A DNA stretch of 37,650 nucleotides from a virus. Location: positions 1 to 37,650 of IMG/VR virus record IMGVR_UViG_3300006868_000042. The stretch is one strand, 5' to 3'. The notes under the pieces are model-generated. The model did not search any database. It was not told where the DNA came from and was given only the letters and a program-made list of their open reading frames with translations. The position numbers were made by a program, and so were the translations under genes. This document shows positions 20,111 through 28,007 of the stretch, one piece after another; the stretch's first letter is position 1, and each line of letters opens with the position of its first letter.

Positions 20111-20524
20111 TTAATTAAATAATTTTTGTTGTAATAAATCCTTTGCATAAACAAAAGTGTTCTTATACTTATAACTCTCTTTTATATTTGCTTTTACATA
20201 GTCTTCACTGTAAATACCTTCAATATAAGCGTATTTATCCTTAATTTGAATAAATACATAGAAGTCTGCCCTTAAATGTTTAGAGAGACTTTCTAAAGAG
20301 CAATTAAAGGTGTAGGTTTTTTTAGAAGTAGCTTTGACTTGGTAAGTGTAACCTTTATTACAAGCAAAATCAATTCCCATGTAATCTCTATCTAACGACT
20401 GATCATGAATAGTTTCACCTTGAAAGTTCTTAAGGAACCAGCTTTTGAAAGCTAGCTCCCCAAGTTCCCCGGTAGATCTATTATTAAAATCAGACAAATC
20501 TATTTTAGCAACGTATCTTCTCAT
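20111..20524 (-). CDS. PD-(D/E)XK nuclease-like protein
   Basis: A 137-residue protein. STGELGELAFKSWF supplies Glu20 and Glu23, GIDFACNKG supplies Asp52, and YTYQVKATS supplies Gln62 and Lys64. This order (E, then D-x(9)-QxK) is the restriction-endonuclease fold core with Q in place of the usual second acid, as in several resolvases and phage nucleases. It overlaps the MazG gene by one base. A role in recombination, host DNA cleavage or DNA processing is possible. Confidence 0.62.
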   Translation of the reverse strand: MRRYVAKIDLSDFNNRSTGELGELAFKSWFLKNFQGETIHDQSLDRDYMGIDFACNKGYTYQVKATSKKTYTFNCSLESLSKHLRADFYVFIQIKDKYAYIEGIYSEDYVKANIKESYKYKNTFVYAKDLLQQKLFN

Positions 20525-20844
20525 TAGGCTTCTTTTACAAATGTTCCGTTTTCCATTTTACCTTTACGCTTAGCAATAACACTATAAGCCTCATTAACAC
20601 AAGATTCTAAAGTAATATCAATTCCATACTTGATCTTAGCTAACTCAGCTACGTTAGTTAGTACTACAACACAATCACCAATAGCATCAATGATCTCTGG
20701 AATATCATCTTTTAGCACTGCTTTTGATAATTCTCCAGCTTCTTCATAAAGCTTTAAAGTTTGTGTCTTTACATCTCCTTTTTCGAAGATTCCTTTGTCT
20801 TTTGCCCATTCTCTAATTGAGCTAAATTCGTTTTTTAATTCCAT
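20524..20844 (-). CDS. MazG-like nucleoside triphosphate pyrophosphohydrolase
   Basis: A 106-residue all-alpha NTP pyrophosphatase. KLYEEAGELSKAV holds the EExxE metal motif, and IIDAIGDCVVVLTNVAEL holds the paired D/D motif. ESCVNEAYSVIAKRKGKM is the usual C-terminal signature. It would cleave an NTP or dNTP to the monophosphate and pyrophosphate. It lies 12 bp downstream of the predicted dCMP-specific ThyA homologue, so a dCTPase role feeding that enzyme is an attractive inference. Lowering of ppGpp or general dNTP cleaning are alternatives. Confidence 0.82.
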   Translation of the reverse strand: MELKNEFSSIREWAKDKGIFEKGDVKTQTLKLYEEAGELSKAVLKDDIPEIIDAIGDCVVVLTNVAELAKIKYGIDITLESCVNEAYSVIAKRKGKMENGTFVKEA

Positions 20845-20856
20845 AATTTTTAATTT

Positions 20857-21636
20857 TTATTTTTTCACTTTTACTTCTAATCTTGAATCCGGATTATAGT
20901 TTTCTAAAATCATCTTATCATAGCTGAACTCACTAAACTTTGGACAGTTTACTAAAGTTGGTAAGGCTTTCTTTTTACGCCCCGCATAAATCGCTGCTTT
21001 TGAAACATGCTCCTCGTATAAATGGCAAGCTGCTGCGTTTATAATGACTTCACCAGGTTTTTTATTAAGTTCTTTAGCTATTATAGATAAAATAGTGGCG
21101 TACATTCCTACATCATAAGGCAATCCAATAAATAAATCTAAAGACCTCATTGATACGACAATATCAATATGGTCCGGGTAAGTAACTAATTGAAAAGCAT
21201 AATGACAAGGAGGTAGTTCCATCTCGTTAATTCTAATAGGGTTCCACATACTTATTAGGTGTCTTCTTGAAGTATAGTTAGACTTAAGATCTTTAATAAG
21301 GTTTTTAAGTTGGTCAACCCCTTCAAAATCCCTGATTTGTTTACCATAAACTGGTCCTAAATCACCATCTTCTTTTGCCCATTGATTCCAAATGGTAACG
21401 CCCCTTTCTTGAAGAAACTTTACATTTGTTTCTCCTCTTAATAACCACTCAACCTCAACAAATATACTTTTAGGAAAAATCTTTTTACCTGTTACAATGG
21501 GAAAACCTTCCCTTAGATTGGCCCTAATCTGGATTCCTGTTAATTGGCGAACCTTTCCATTCCTGGAATTTATTTTTTCTCCTTTCTTAGCCACTAAGTG
21601 TATAGCTGCCGAATAGTTTTCTTCGTAAGTATTCAT
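20857..21636 (-). CDS. Thymidylate synthase homologue, predicted dCMP hydroxymethylase or methylase
   Basis: A 259-residue ThyA-family protein of full length. Conserved parts are EVEWLLRGETN (Glu61), GDLGPVYGKQ, SRRHLISMWNP (Arg pair), the nucleophile in LPPCHYAF (Cys144), MRSLDLF (Arg164, Ser165) and CHLYEEH (His205, Tyr207). The dUMP-specifying Asn of thymidylate synthases (LPFNI) is Asp175 here (LPYDV), the same change found in T4 dCMP hydroxymethylase and in synthase mutants that accept dCMP. The KQWRAW tryptophan is Ile101, which may open the site to water. I therefore predict a folate-dependent 5-hydroxymethylation or methylation of dCMP. Overlap with DUF6378-like and MazG genes places it in a nucleotide module. 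Confidence 0.8.
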   Translation of the reverse strand: MNTYEENYSAAIHLVAKKGEKINSRNGKVRQLTGIQIRANLREGFPIVTGKKIFPKSIFVEVEWLLRGETNVKFLQERGVTIWNQWAKEDGDLGPVYGKQIRDFEGVDQLKNLIKDLKSNYTSRRHLISMWNPIRINEMELPPCHYAFQLVTYPDHIDIVVSMRSLDLFIGLPYDVGMYATILSIIAKELNKKPGEVIINAAACHLYEEHVSKAAIYAGRKKKALPTLVNCPKFSEFSYDKMILENYNPDSRLEVKVKK

Positions 21637-21637
21637 A

Positions 21638-22039
21638 CTACCTATGTCTATTACTCATTTTATACCCCAATGTCTTTTCGTAATCCTCATCAAACTTTTC
21701 AAAAGCTGTTTTAGGCCTCAAAGTTTTTTCGTAGGCTTCGTCGTATTCTTCATCACTTAGTCTGTTATTAGGGCTCCCTTCTTTTTCTAAGAAGTTATTT
21801 AAGGACCCTAAATAAGCCACAGCGTCAAGTAAGTTATCTTCTTTATGGGCATAGCTCTGACGAGCCATTTTAAGAGCCACTAACACATTATAAGCATCTA
21901 CTATAGAAATCTCTTTATTGCTCATTATAGAGGCTAATTTAGCCGTTTTAAGCATACACTGCTGAAACGGTCCATACTGTCTTTCTTTTTCTTCTGATCG
22001 TTCGTTCACGATCTCATTTGCTTTTTCTAAAATATTCAT
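21638..22039 (-). CDS. DUF6378-like helical phage protein
   Basis: A 133-residue helical protein. RSEEKERQYGPFQQCMLKTA, then ISIVDAYNVLVALKMARQSY and EDNLLDAVAYLGSLNNF match the DUF6378 pattern (RxxxYGxxxxxF..., KxAR, DNxxDxxxY). The C-terminus is charged and repetitive (DEEYDEAYEKTL and DEDYEKTL). Function unknown; the family tends to lie near nucleotide enzymes in phages, as it does here. Its stop is one base from the ThyA-homologue start. Confidence 0.7.
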   Translation of the reverse strand: MNILEKANEIVNERSEEKERQYGPFQQCMLKTAKLASIMSNKEISIVDAYNVLVALKMARQSYAHKEDNLLDAVAYLGSLNNFLEKEGSPNNRLSDEEYDEAYEKTLRPKTAFEKFDEDYEKTLGYKMSNRHR

Positions 22040-22048
22040 ATTGGTTTA

Positions 22049-22282
22049 TTAAGCTGTTACAAATTCCGTGTTAACTGATAGACATCTCCAGTTATCTTTT
22101 TCTAAATCGAAGTAAGCTAAAACTTTGTCACTCGCTTTCCCTGTTCCTTTTGGATGTTTTTCTACTGGAACAAAGGTTAAATTCGTAGTACCTTTAGCTA
22201 TTCTTACTGAACCGTCCTTTTTAATAAATGCAAAGTCTGTGATTCCGTTTGACAATTCTTTTCTTAGATCTTGTACTTTCAT
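22049..22282 (-). CDS. WYL_2 / SH3-like beta-barrel protein
   Basis: A 77-residue protein. The core, ELSNGITDFAFIKKDGSVRI then AKGTTNLTFVP and FDLEKDNWRCLSV, matches the small Sm/SH3-like WYL_2 (DUF2693) proteins seen in Bacteroidota phages and plasmids. It is the first gene after P2; the -7 box lies 24 bp upstream, and the leader contains AAAAACGAATA. Nucleic-acid binding is plausible for the fold but unproven. Confidence 0.7.
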   Translation of the reverse strand: MKVQDLRKELSNGITDFAFIKKDGSVRIAKGTTNLTFVPVEKHPKGTGKASDKVLAYFDLEKDNWRCLSVNTEFVTA

Positions 22283-22306: not shown

Positions 22307-22349
22307 CAAATATAAGTATATTCTGTTAATAAATGAAACTTTTTTAACA
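22307..22349 (-). promoter_or_regulatory. Promoter P2 with 26-bp operator-like palindrome
   Basis: The -7 element TATATTTG (22307-22314) lies 9 bp after the 26-bp palindrome (22324-22349), which is identical to the P1 copy. The palindrome overlaps the stop codon of the DnaA-like gene, and no terminator lies between, so read-through from P3 can add to P2 output. It directs the nucleotide, endolysin and terminase genes. Confidence 0.82.
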
Positions 22350-23039
22350 ATTTAATTGTAATAGTGTTCTTTTTATTTGATCTTCAATCTCTTTAACAGC
22401 TACTCTAAGTTTAGAGTCATAAGGCATACCTTCTGCGATTTTTTTATTACCGTGTATAAAGGTTGTTCTATCCCTATTAATAATGTTAGTTAATATAGGA
22501 CCAAATTGAGAGTAAGAAATGTATCTCTCAAAACAAAAGTAACTGATCAAGTGTCTAGCTACTGGGAGTGGGTTTTTTCTACTCTCTCCACATAAAGCAT
22601 TTACAGTTACATCAAAGTAATTAGCAACACAGTCAACAACAGTTGTTACATATTTCTCAACCTCAACGTCAATGTCCTTAACTCTTTTATTTGGATCAGT
22701 TACTGCTCCATCATACTGAATAGAGTAAGATAAAGCTCCTTTGATCCTATCTCTAACTTCATATTCTCCGTTCTTGATAAAATTGATATGTTCATCGTTG
22801 ATAACTTCAAATATAGGGCTCATTTCTAATCCGTGTTCAACAGAACAGGATAAAACAGCGTGTAGAATACTACCTAAATGATGAGCAACCCCGATAATAT
22901 CGTTAGCTTCTTTAGCATGTTTATAACCTTTTATATCAAAGTTAATTACGTTCAAATCAAAATTTGATTTAGTGATAGGTCTATTACTAATTTGTTGACC
23001 GTTAGCTTTGTTGAATTTTTCTATTTCTTTCCTTTTCAT
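22344..23039 (-). CDS. Degenerate MazG-like domain fused to DnaA domain IV-like DNA-binding domain
   Basis: About 231 residues from the ATG at 23039, which lies 2 bp after the preceding stop; an ATG at 23072 would overlap that gene. Residues 41-90 (AKEANDIIGVAHHLGSILHA, then GLEMSPIFEVINDEHINFI) follow the last two helices of MazG-like pyrophosphatases, but the catalytic Asp of the LGD motif is Ser57. Residues 138-205 (VANYFDVTVNALCGESRK, ARHLISYFCFERYISY, INRDRTTFIHG) match the C-terminal helix-turn-helix of DnaA, including the RDxxTxxHG signature. It is probably a phage origin-binding or regulatory protein. The AAA+ domain of DnaA is absent. Confidence 0.68.
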   Translation of the reverse strand: MKRKEIEKFNKANGQQISNRPITKSNFDLNVINFDIKGYKHAKEANDIIGVAHHLGSILHAVLSCSVEHGLEMSPIFEVINDEHINFIKNGEYEVRDRIKGALSYSIQYDGAVTDPNKRVKDIDVEVEKYVTTVVDCVANYFDVTVNALCGESRKNPLPVARHLISYFCFERYISYSQFGPILTNIINRDRTTFIHGNKKIAEGMPYDSKLRVAVKEIEDQIKRTLLQLNC

Positions 23040-25371: not shown

Positions 25372-26415
25372 TTAAAATGGTATTGAATCCTCATCTCTAT
25401 TAAATGTTGTTCCTTTGTTAAATGCTTCAGTGGTTTCTTCTTTATCAAAGCTCATTTCTTCTTGAATCCCACACCTTTCTTTAAGCTTAGTCCTATCAGC
25501 GTAAATATCCACTCCGTCCCAATCTTTACAGTAGTAAGCGTTCATTTCCTTATTGTAAAAGAAAGTATAATCTCCTTTCTTAGAAGCACCTTTGGGCTTT
25601 TCTTTAGCTATCCTTATAATAGCCTCGTTTGCTTCGTAAGTTCCTTGTCCGTTATCTCTAGTAACTCCGTAAGGAGGTCTCCATACTATAATCATCTGTT
25701 CACCTTTTCTAAACCACGCTTGACCTCCGGCAAACTCTCTTGGAGTCGGTATTGGGCAAAATCTCTTACCATCTTTTTCGATGATAGGCTGGTCTCTAAC
25801 GTGAGTGATTAAGCAGTTATGTCTACCGGTTTTTCTAGCGTTTCTTCTACACTTACCTAAAAGTTCTTCAACATACAAATCTTGTCTACCGCTAAAATCA
25901 TGCTTAACTTCGTTAAATGGATCAATTGTTGTAGTATTGAATTTCCATCCAAGTTCTTCTTCAACTTGATCAACCATTTCATAATATTGATCTAAAGTCA
26001 TAGTATCGTCTTTAGGGTCGATAACTACAAAGTGTTCACCTATAAAATACTCCGCTTGGCTTTTATCCGCTTCAGTCATTTTAACATCATCTTTACCGAA
26101 GTAAGGCTTGTTAACGTACTTATGGCAAAGTTCAGCGAAAACCTCGTGTACTTCTCCAGTCTCAGGAGTAAATATAATATGCTTATCTCCGTATATACAA
26201 GATAGGTTAACTAATATCTCTAACCACCATTCTGACTTACCCGAAGCAGGTGCGCCTGCGATATAAGTAGTACAACCTTTTTTAATAGACATTCCGCACT
26301 TATCGAAGTCAAATCCGATTTCTTTACCTCTCGTTAATCCTTTTTCTCTTAGCTTAAATAATTCATTAGAAACGTCCTTAAGCTCGTAATAGTGTTTTGG
26401 TTTGTTCGTTTTCAT
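25372..26415 (-). CDS. DnaB-like replicative helicase (RecA-fold ATPase) with SSB-like tail
   Basis: A 347-residue protein. IAGAPASGKSEWW (residues 52-64) is the Walker A loop, TTTIDPFNEVKHDF the Walker B strand, and GRHNCLITHVRDQP plus EFAGGQAWFRKGEQMIIVWR match later DnaB/Twinkle-type motifs. It lacks the DnaB N-terminal domain and any primase part, so it is short. It would unwind DNA at the fork. The last residues, NRDEDSIPF, copy the acidic peptide tip of SSB proteins, an unexpected feature for a helicase. It sits 6 bp downstream of the PP-loop gene. Confidence 0.8.
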   Translation of the reverse strand: MKTNKPKHYYELKDVSNELFKLREKGLTRGKEIGFDFDKCGMSIKKGCTTYIAGAPASGKSEWWLEILVNLSCIYGDKHIIFTPETGEVHEVFAELCHKYVNKPYFGKDDVKMTEADKSQAEYFIGEHFVVIDPKDDTMTLDQYYEMVDQVEEELGWKFNTTTIDPFNEVKHDFSGRQDLYVEELLGKCRRNARKTGRHNCLITHVRDQPIIEKDGKRFCPIPTPREFAGGQAWFRKGEQMIIVWRPPYGVTRDNGQGTYEANEAIIRIAKEKPKGASKKGDYTFFYNKEMNAYYCKDWDGVDIYADRTKLKERCGIQEEMSFDKEETTEAFNKGTTFNRDEDSIPF

Positions 26416-26421
26416 ATTATT

Positions 26422-27297
26422 TTAATTGTTATTGTCGTCTCCGCACATTGAGAAAATATCACAGCTTTCTTCAAATAAATCAAGCTGCTCTGATGTTTCA
26501 GAACTATCATCTTTAACAATTAAGTCAACGGCATTTTCAATATACCATTCAGCAGATCTGTTTTTTCTAAAGAATGTTATCTTATAATTATCAGATTTGC
26601 CTTCAAGACTTCTTGATTCAGGGATAAAATTTGAATACTCTTCTTCAAGGATCTTAAAAGAATTAAATTTTTCAGGAGCTTCAAAAGCAATCTTTAGAAG
26701 TTTTTTTTCTGACTTCTTCCAACACGTTTTGCAATTGCCTTGATAACCTTTTAACTCTAATCTAAAAGGCTGTTCATCCCACCATGAGTTCACTTTTGTC
26801 TTTGTTGTTTTTACTTCTGTTACTAATGGATAAAGAAGTTTGTGTTCTTTTCTTTTACTGTTTATTCTGTCAATCTCATCATACCTTATTCCAATTGCAG
26901 TATAGTAATCTTTCCAACCTATACTTCTTAAATAGCTTTTAATTGGCTGGAGTTTTAACTCTCTATTACAATGAGGATAAGAATTGTTTGGTATTCCATA
27001 AACCTGAATCATTTCTTCAAAAAGTCTATTTGACCTTGTAGCCGTTTCAAAGTTTACTATTTTATGTGTAGTTCCTTTACCGTGTTCTTTATGAAAAACT
27101 CCCTCAACCCAAATAACTTCAATATTAAATAGATTAGCGCATCTTTCTACAAATAAAAGAGTCTCTTCATTTTCTTCTCCAGTATTAGCAAAAACAACTT
27201 TTATCTCATACTTATCTTGCCAATTGTTTAAAATCCAATAAAGCATATATCCTGATGTTTCTCCACCGCTAAAACTTACAAGTAACTTCTCTTTCAT
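26422..27297 (-). CDS. PP-loop (PAPS reductase/DndC-like) family enzyme
   Basis: A 291-residue protein. LLVSFSGGETSGYML is the adenylate-binding PP-loop (SGGxxS), VVFANTGEENEETL the following strand-loop, YPHCNRELKLQPIKSYL a Cys-containing motif, and YYTAIGIRYDEIDRI the second nucleotide contact. CKTCW near residue 199 and a Cys-containing C-terminus could bind metal. Relatives reduce PAPS, thiolate tRNA or act in DNA phosphorothioation. No partner of those pathways is visible, so the substrate is unknown. Its position between replisome organiser and helicase suggests work on nucleotides or DNA. Confidence 0.75.
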   Translation of the reverse strand: MKEKLLVSFSGGETSGYMLYWILNNWQDKYEIKVVFANTGEENEETLLFVERCANLFNIEVIWVEGVFHKEHGKGTTHKIVNFETATRSNRLFEEMIQVYGIPNNSYPHCNRELKLQPIKSYLRSIGWKDYYTAIGIRYDEIDRINSKRKEHKLLYPLVTEVKTTKTKVNSWWDEQPFRLELKGYQGNCKTCWKKSEKKLLKIAFEAPEKFNSFKILEEEYSNFIPESRSLEGKSDNYKITFFRKNRSAEWYIENAVDLIVKDDSSETSEQLDLFEESCDIFSMCGDDNNN

Positions 27298-27308
27298 ATT
27301 ATTCTATT

Positions 27309-28007
27309 TTAAAAGTGTTCGTTAAATCCTGTAGAGTAAGATTCGTTTTTAATTATCTTAACGTCGTTCTTTTTAACTTCCTGGTCTCGTTTAAGCCAAT
27401 TAAGTATAGTTAGGTAAACGCTTTTTACTTGCTTATTCTTTTTCCAACCTTCAATCTTAGCTATGTAGTGATCAATAGTAGCAGAATCATAGTGTTTCAA
27501 AAGTTTATCGTAATCTTTCATTGATAATATCAAATGACCATTTTCGTAATAATTTGATGGATCTTCGACTTCAGTTGTTATAGTAGCAATTCCTTTAACA
27601 CTAGAATAATTATCTATCAAAAAATTGAATGATTTATCTACATCAGTTTTATCTAAAACATCAATATTGTCTCTAACAGAAGATGGCAACTCATTGAATG
27701 TTTCAATAGCACTCTTCTTCATGTTTGTATTGTATTTCTGATGCTTCATATAATTAACTAAAATAATGTAGTTATCAACGTACTTCACTTTGCCTAATCT
27801 TTGAAAAACATCTAATGCATCCTTTATGCATTCAATAGATAATCCTGTTTCGAATGACATCTTTCTTTTAGATGCTTCATAAATCCCTAACATATTTGTC
27901 TTCTCATTTGTGATCAAATAAAGGAATAACAGTTTGTACTCTGGAGCTATATCCTCTATAAAAGGGTCACTCCAAAAGGCAGTATTAACGCTTCTTTTTT
28001 TGCTCAT
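27309..28007 (-). CDS. DnaD-like replisome organiser
   Basis: A 232-residue protein. The N-terminal part, RSVNTAFWSDPFIEDIAPEY then LLFLYLITNEKTNMLGIYEA, is a pattern common to phage replication-initiation proteins with a winged-helix domain. LGKVKYVDNYIILVNYMKHQ follows. The C-terminal third has helices like a DnaD/DnaB2-type domain, with VYLTILNWLKRDQ near the end. It would bind the origin and help load the helicase encoded two genes downstream. It overlaps the membrane-protein gene by 23 bp. Confidence 0.7.
   Translation of the reverse strand: MSKKRSVNTAFWSDPFIEDIAPEYKLLFLYLITNEKTNMLGIYEASKRKMSFETGLSIECIKDALDVFQRLGKVKYVDNYIILVNYMKHQKYNTNMKKSAIETFNELPSSVRDNIDVLDKTDVDKSFNFLIDNYSSVKGIATITTEVEDPSNYYENGHLILSMKDYDKLLKHYDSATIDHYIAKIEGWKKNKQVKSVYLTILNWLKRDQEVKKNDVKIIKNESYSTGFNEHF

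Follow-up and report, generated by a model that had tools for sequence, protein, structure and literature searches.

MazG enzymes act as dimers or tetramers (PMC10014863; PMC2954211), and in Mtb MazG three Glu residues and one Asp residue bind Mg and are required for activity (PMC10014863). One relative, DR2231, was reported in a 2016 FEBS J article, as cited in PMC10014863, to be dUTP-specific. On the DNA-binding side, the DNA-contacting residues of DnaA include R399, D433, H434, T435, and H439 (PMC7561715), and the DnaA R399A and T435M variants are defective in box binding (PMC5742627). Fusions of a DNA-binding domain to MazG are already known in dairy phages (HTH_3-MazG); the variant that we describe here, in which MazG is joined to DnaA domain IV (MazG-DnaA_C), appears to be new. 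The original prediction for this DNA knew of no described protein with such an architecture, and we likewise found no description of one in the literature searched. The fusion lies in a 37,650-nucleotide stretch of viral DNA, analyzed as a whole and called the window below.

Architecture of the fusion protein

The gene and its parts are as follows.

22344..23039, minus strand: fusion gene, 231 aa, a degenerate MazG/PRA-PH fold plus DnaA domain IV (Pfam, profile, and relatives)
22785..23039, minus strand: MazG-like all-alpha domain, residues 1-85 (profile, BLASTP, and model)
22659..22784, minus strand: linker, residues 86-127 (alignment with sisters)
22437..22646, minus strand: Bac_DnaA_C, the DnaA domain IV helix-turn-helix, residues 132-201 (Pfam and model)
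22452..22472, minus strand: DnaA signature DRTTFIH, residues 190-196, with Arg at the position of the base-contacting E. coli His434 (alignment)

The open reading frame starts with the ATG at 23039, and the same MKR[KR]EI start is found in relatives. The presence of a C-terminal DnaA domain IV, which had been proposed from the letters alone, was borne out by a Pfam match of Bac_DnaA_C (PF08299) to residues 132-201 (E=3.2e-9; 37.1 bits, cut-off 31.5) and by the match of residues 129-227 of the structure model to 3pvp (Z 10.4, rmsd 2.7, 96 residues). The model also matched 1j1v (Z 9.6, rmsd 2.7, 93 residues), and the top PDB sequence matches of the fusion were DnaA chains with domain IV (3pvp, 1l8q, and 2hcb). 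NCBIfam DnaA models aligned to the fusion at their C-terminal end only. Pfam returned no match to AAA+ domain III in the 231-aa protein, and the predicted absence of this domain was likewise upheld.

The N-terminal half gave no match with Pfam alone. It was found over residues 2-85 (E=2.9e-11) by a MazG profile that was built without the window protein from 89 relatives, namely 80 MazG proteins from bacteria and 9 MazG halves from phages, of which 8 are fused; the best of 2000 shuffled controls reached 0.002. BLASTP of the window fusion against the intact sister L010 aligned 127 columns at 32% identity (E=9e-19, single comparison). Given these profile and BLASTP matches, MazG homology spans the whole domain, beyond residues 41-90, to which it had originally been assigned; the assignment to MazG/PRA-PH therefore stands, and its extent is corrected to residues 2-85. 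The structure model has a mean pLDDT of 61 and a pTM of 0.47, and its low-pLDDT stretch covers residues 70-116. Helices run over residues 5-88, with matches to PRA-PH 1yvw (Z 8.4, rmsd 6.4, 75 residues, at low pLDDT) and, for the N-terminal half, to iMazG (Z 7.5, rmsd 3.8, 68 residues, at low pLDDT and with intact sisters in the alignment). Because the alignment behind the model included intact sisters, the retained MazG fold is partly assumed, and the model supports, without proving, that fold.

The fusion family in related phages

Sister phages were drawn from IMG/VR through the RDRTTF[IVM]HG DNA pattern, the terminase, and the family alignment. The full fusion was present in at least 11 further contigs from IMG/VR that belong to the same group of phages (G003-G006 and G302-G308), and the sister locus L037 also encodes it. 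In the intact sisters, a single open reading frame matched PRA-PH (E 1e-15 to 1e-18), MazG, and Bac_DnaA_C (E 1e-9 to 1e-11). Where flanks were present, the neighbors of the fusion were largely common to the sisters and comprised RusA-like resolvase, exonuclease-like, helicase-like, WYL_2, and TerL genes. The nearest PDB entries to the sister MazG half were 3nl9 and DR2231. Its closest cellular relatives (best 80 loci) were stand-alone MazG proteins, mostly of Flavobacteria, from which we infer that the host of these phages is probably flavobacterial.

The fusion was not recovered elsewhere. Among 50,697 named phage records, 778 matched the intact sister protein and none covered 80% of it, and a query with the window protein gave four matches to phage records, three to full-length DnaA-type open reading frames and one to a stand-alone MazG. 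In bacteria, the match of the best 80 loci was confined to the MazG half, and the motif RDR[TS]F[IVM]HG was absent from all 296 genomes surveyed in one flavobacterial order.

Loss of the active site in the window lineage

The EExxE...ExxD metal ligands and the next Asp are missing from the window fusion. Residues E36, E37, E40, E52, D55, and D59 of the sisters are replaced by F34, D35, G38, G50, H53, and S57; five of the six carboxylate positions have thus become F, G, G, H, and S, and one Glu has become Asp. All six ligands are invariant in the 8 aligned fused sisters and in the 80 bacterial relatives. The Asp-to-Ser change that had been spotted at the outset is S57, one of these six altered positions. 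The substrate-loop motif of the sisters, SNMSKLxxDG..REDGKVLKGxNY, is degraded and partly deleted in the window linker, and the loop residues S85, N86, K89, D101, G102, K103, and K106 are altered or deleted. Among the sisters aligned, the window lineage alone is a pseudoenzyme within the fusion family, as judged by sequence. The earlier description of the fusion as catalytically degenerate consequently holds for the window lineage and not for the sisters, whose active site is intact where aligned. The intact active site in the sisters' fusions points to the conversion of an enzyme into a DNA-binding scaffold.

We ruled out a frameshift or an assembly artefact as the source of the degeneracy: homology is continuous in a single frame, and two other contigs are identical to the window DNA over 9.8 and 10.7 kb. 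The IMG/VR copies of the window fusion are 100% identical.

We considered that the dead MazG half might still bind an NTP or an alarmone and thereby switch the DNA-binding half. Some pseudoenzymes retain ligand binding. The staphylococcal phage dUTPases, put forward in PMC4914113 as dUTP-responsive regulators, would offer a precedent. However, the changes at each of the six metal-ligand positions, together with the altered or deleted residues of the substrate loop, leave no canonical Mg-NTP site, and a cyanophage MazG showed neither binding nor hydrolysis of (p)ppGpp (PMC6850273). The suggestion that the protein senses nucleotides is weakened by these changes as far as the old active site is concerned, and we give a sensor little credence.

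Evolutionary rates of the two halves

Identity among the sisters is 70-100% in the MazG half and 60-98% in the DnaA half, with the exception of L036 (23-26%). Between the window and the sisters it falls to 32-37% in the MazG half and is 51-58% in the DnaA half, again with the exception of L036 (23%). The window branch of a fixed tree had a length of 2.35 for the MazG half and 0.56 for the DnaA half, a rate about four times faster for the MazG half. Most relatives show slower evolution in the MazG half than in the DnaA half, as in L010 (0.09 versus 0.31) and L036 (0.41 versus 3.84). We take the branch lengths to indicate that catalytic constraint was lost in the window lineage and that the DNA-binding half is still constrained. 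At positions invariant among the sisters, the window MazG half retained 17 of 38 hydrophobic residues versus 5 of 28 polar ones (Fisher P=0.03), and this preferential hydrophobic retention weakly fits a kept scaffold.

The same rates bear on the idea that DnaA domain IV is the only functional part and that the MazG half is a decaying, tolerated, inert N-terminal extension. The long MazG-half branch (2.35), the low pLDDT of residues 70-116, and the loop deletions would all agree with inertness, as would the frequent occurrence, in other phage loci, of AAA+-less DnaA_C proteins that have no MazG attached. An inert extension is nonetheless unlikely in our judgment, given that the frame is open across the whole MazG half, that the hydrophobic core is preferentially retained, and that the domain is recognizable at E=2.9e-11.

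Two fusions, L036:5410-6096 and L193:841-1527, pair a conserved MazG half with a strongly diverged DnaA half; L036 shares 70-74% identity with the other fusions in the former and 23-26% in the latter. This sequence divergence suggests that the DNA target differs among sister phages or that the DnaA half was swapped.

Neighboring genes

Near the fusion the window carries three further genes.

20524..20844, minus strand: separate 106-aa MazG with the six ligands intact, the sole Pfam-detectable MazG of the window
20857..21636, minus strand: thymidylate synthase (Pfam), missing from 11 related fusion-bearing contigs
21638..22039, minus strand: DUF6378 protein (Pfam), missing from the same 11 related fusion-bearing contigs

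In all 12 contigs scanned, PF03819 was detected once per contig, located within the fusion in 11 of them and, for the window, in the stand-alone gene; Bac_DnaA_C was likewise detected once per contig in 12 of 12. Thymidylate synthase (ThyA) and DUF6378 were matched in the window only, an absence that holds for the related contigs, which may be fragments, and not necessarily for the whole viruses. Around the fusion, slots in the sisters examined are often taken by methyltransferase-like or helicase-like genes, as identified by reading the sequences, and in several sisters such genes occupy the slot that in the window (20524-22039) holds ThyA, DUF6378, and MazG. It is possible that this slot is a cargo hot spot.

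Directly downstream of the fusion, at 22049-22282, the window encodes a WYL_2 Sm-like protein (PF10902, E=2e-19), whose gene is near the fusion in most sisters and located elsewhere in L036 and L098. The replication region of the window includes a PAPS-reductase-family gene (PF01507) at 26422-27297; sister L097 has this gene too, and L010, L030, and L098 lack it at the corresponding position.

DNA binding and candidate target sites

From the 3pvp alignment and the spacing of the E. coli residues, we take R154, R162, D190, T192, T193, and H196 of the window protein to correspond to E. coli R399, R407, D433, T435, T436, and H439, and H163 and R191 to occupy the positions of Q408 and H434, which are altered in close sisters too. 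Plausibly, then, the window fusion can bind DNA, with a specificity predicted to be altered. In the 37.65-kb window, which may be an incomplete genome, the DnaA box TTWTNCACA occurred at 1 site versus 2.8 expected, with no clustering, which weakens the idea that the fusion binds canonical boxes within the phage. A search for enriched 7- to 9-mers common to the window and four sister-locus sets yielded no convincing target. The repeats at 3.9 and 15.7 kb, which had been singled out for binding assays (15.7 and 3.95 kb), were rejected as a target given that they are AT-rich and unlike DnaA boxes. The repeats that flank transposases with a Bac_DnaA_C-like domain are also unlike DnaA boxes (PMC6006769).

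The protein could instead act on the host, occupying host DnaA boxes (TTATCCACA-type) without AAA+ and thereby stopping host replication. A domain IV that lacks AAA+ could sit on DnaA boxes without melting the origin, and six of its residues align with presumed DnaA contact positions. Set against this are the contact changes Q408 to H and H434 to R in the window and close sisters, as well as the fast divergence of the DnaA half between phages (23-26% for L036 versus the others), which is not what a conserved host target would lead us to expect. We therefore regard a host-initiator decoy as improbable.

Proposed mechanism

We lean modestly toward a reading in which these phages encode a DNA-tethered MazG family and in which, in the window lineage, a stand-alone MazG took over catalysis and the fusion is now a dimerizing, DNA-binding scaffold. 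The ancestral fusion, like that of the sisters, would have been a MazG-type NTP pyrophosphohydrolase tethered to DNA through DnaA domain IV. A second, stand-alone MazG would then have arrived together with thymidylate synthase and DUF6378 and taken over catalysis, after which the fused MazG half would have given up its metal ligands and its substrate-loop motif while keeping much of its hydrophobic core. Arrival of the new MazG before decay of the fusion is the order suggested by a single lineage. Given that MazG folds form dimers or tetramers, the MazG half would bring two DnaA-type domains together, and the resulting dimer would probably place both on DNA and regulate phage replication or transcription. 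For replication, the window phage encodes a replisome-organizer/DnaD-like protein (27309-28007) and a helicase-like one (25372-26415) of its own, which makes a regulatory or accessory role likelier than that of an initiator; control of replication initiation by the fusion, as first suggested, is possible.

More specifically, the sister enzyme may act on dUTP or another dNTP, as its resemblance to DR2231 would imply. That it is a DNA-tethered dNTP house-cleaner, and the window protein a dead DnaA-type scaffold left after the job moved to the new MazG, is a tentative proposal that we hold with some reserve.

Within one phage group, fusions that are intact, one that is dead, and a candidate for the replacement enzyme make up a natural series, through which the reason for tying a nucleotide pyrophosphohydrolase to DNA can be tested directly. 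If the more specific reading is true, control of the nucleotide pool would be coupled to a particular DNA site in the replication cycle of the phage, and the window would hold a phage enzyme in the course of turning into a regulator that binds DNA.

Comparison with known systems

DnaA domain IV travels among phages as a portable unit for binding DNA, detached from its AAA+ motor. We observed AAA+-less DnaA domain IV proteins of about 120-207 aa at L213:9335-9928, L216:6258-6857, L242:18-560, and about 27 other places; such genes were present in 11 of 52 TerL-selected versus 19 of 76 MazG-selected loci. In L216, L253, L254, and L273 the DnaA_C gene lies directly 3' of a stand-alone MazG, an adjacency for which we claim no functional link because DnaA_C is frequent in TerL-selected loci too. 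Compared with DnaA itself, the window fusion matches domain IV above the Pfam cut-off, lacks AAA+ domain III, has H and R at the Q408 and H434 positions, and has a MazG fold attached. A DnaA-domain-IV-like C-terminal module is also found in HuH transposases (TnpA-REP subclass 2.1), where it is joined to an unrelated enzyme (PMC6006769).

The window protein, with both domains in one open reading frame, belongs with the phage fusions of DNA-binding and MazG domains. A known precedent, the HTH_3-MazG protein of Streptococcus thermophilus phages (e.g., P0091 gp38; HTH_3 E=1.5e-14, MazG E=0.005, the latter below the Pfam cut-off), likewise carries DNA-binding and MazG domains in one protein. It differs in its N-terminal Cro/CI HTH_3, in its other MazG subfamily, and in keeping most ligand positions. 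Its locus, L281:509-1021, is annotated "DNA binding protein," which hides the MazG, and many related records are annotated likewise. On the enzyme side, the closest comparison is with DR2231-like MazG/PRA-PH proteins: the sister profile matches DR2231 at E=1e-8, DR2231 is the best fold match of the L010 model (Foldseek E=2.5e-4, Z 6.9), and the N-terminal half of the window protein is homologous to the sisters. The window copy departs from the DR2231-like enzymes both in the absence of metal ligands and substrate-loop motif and in its C-terminal DnaA domain IV.
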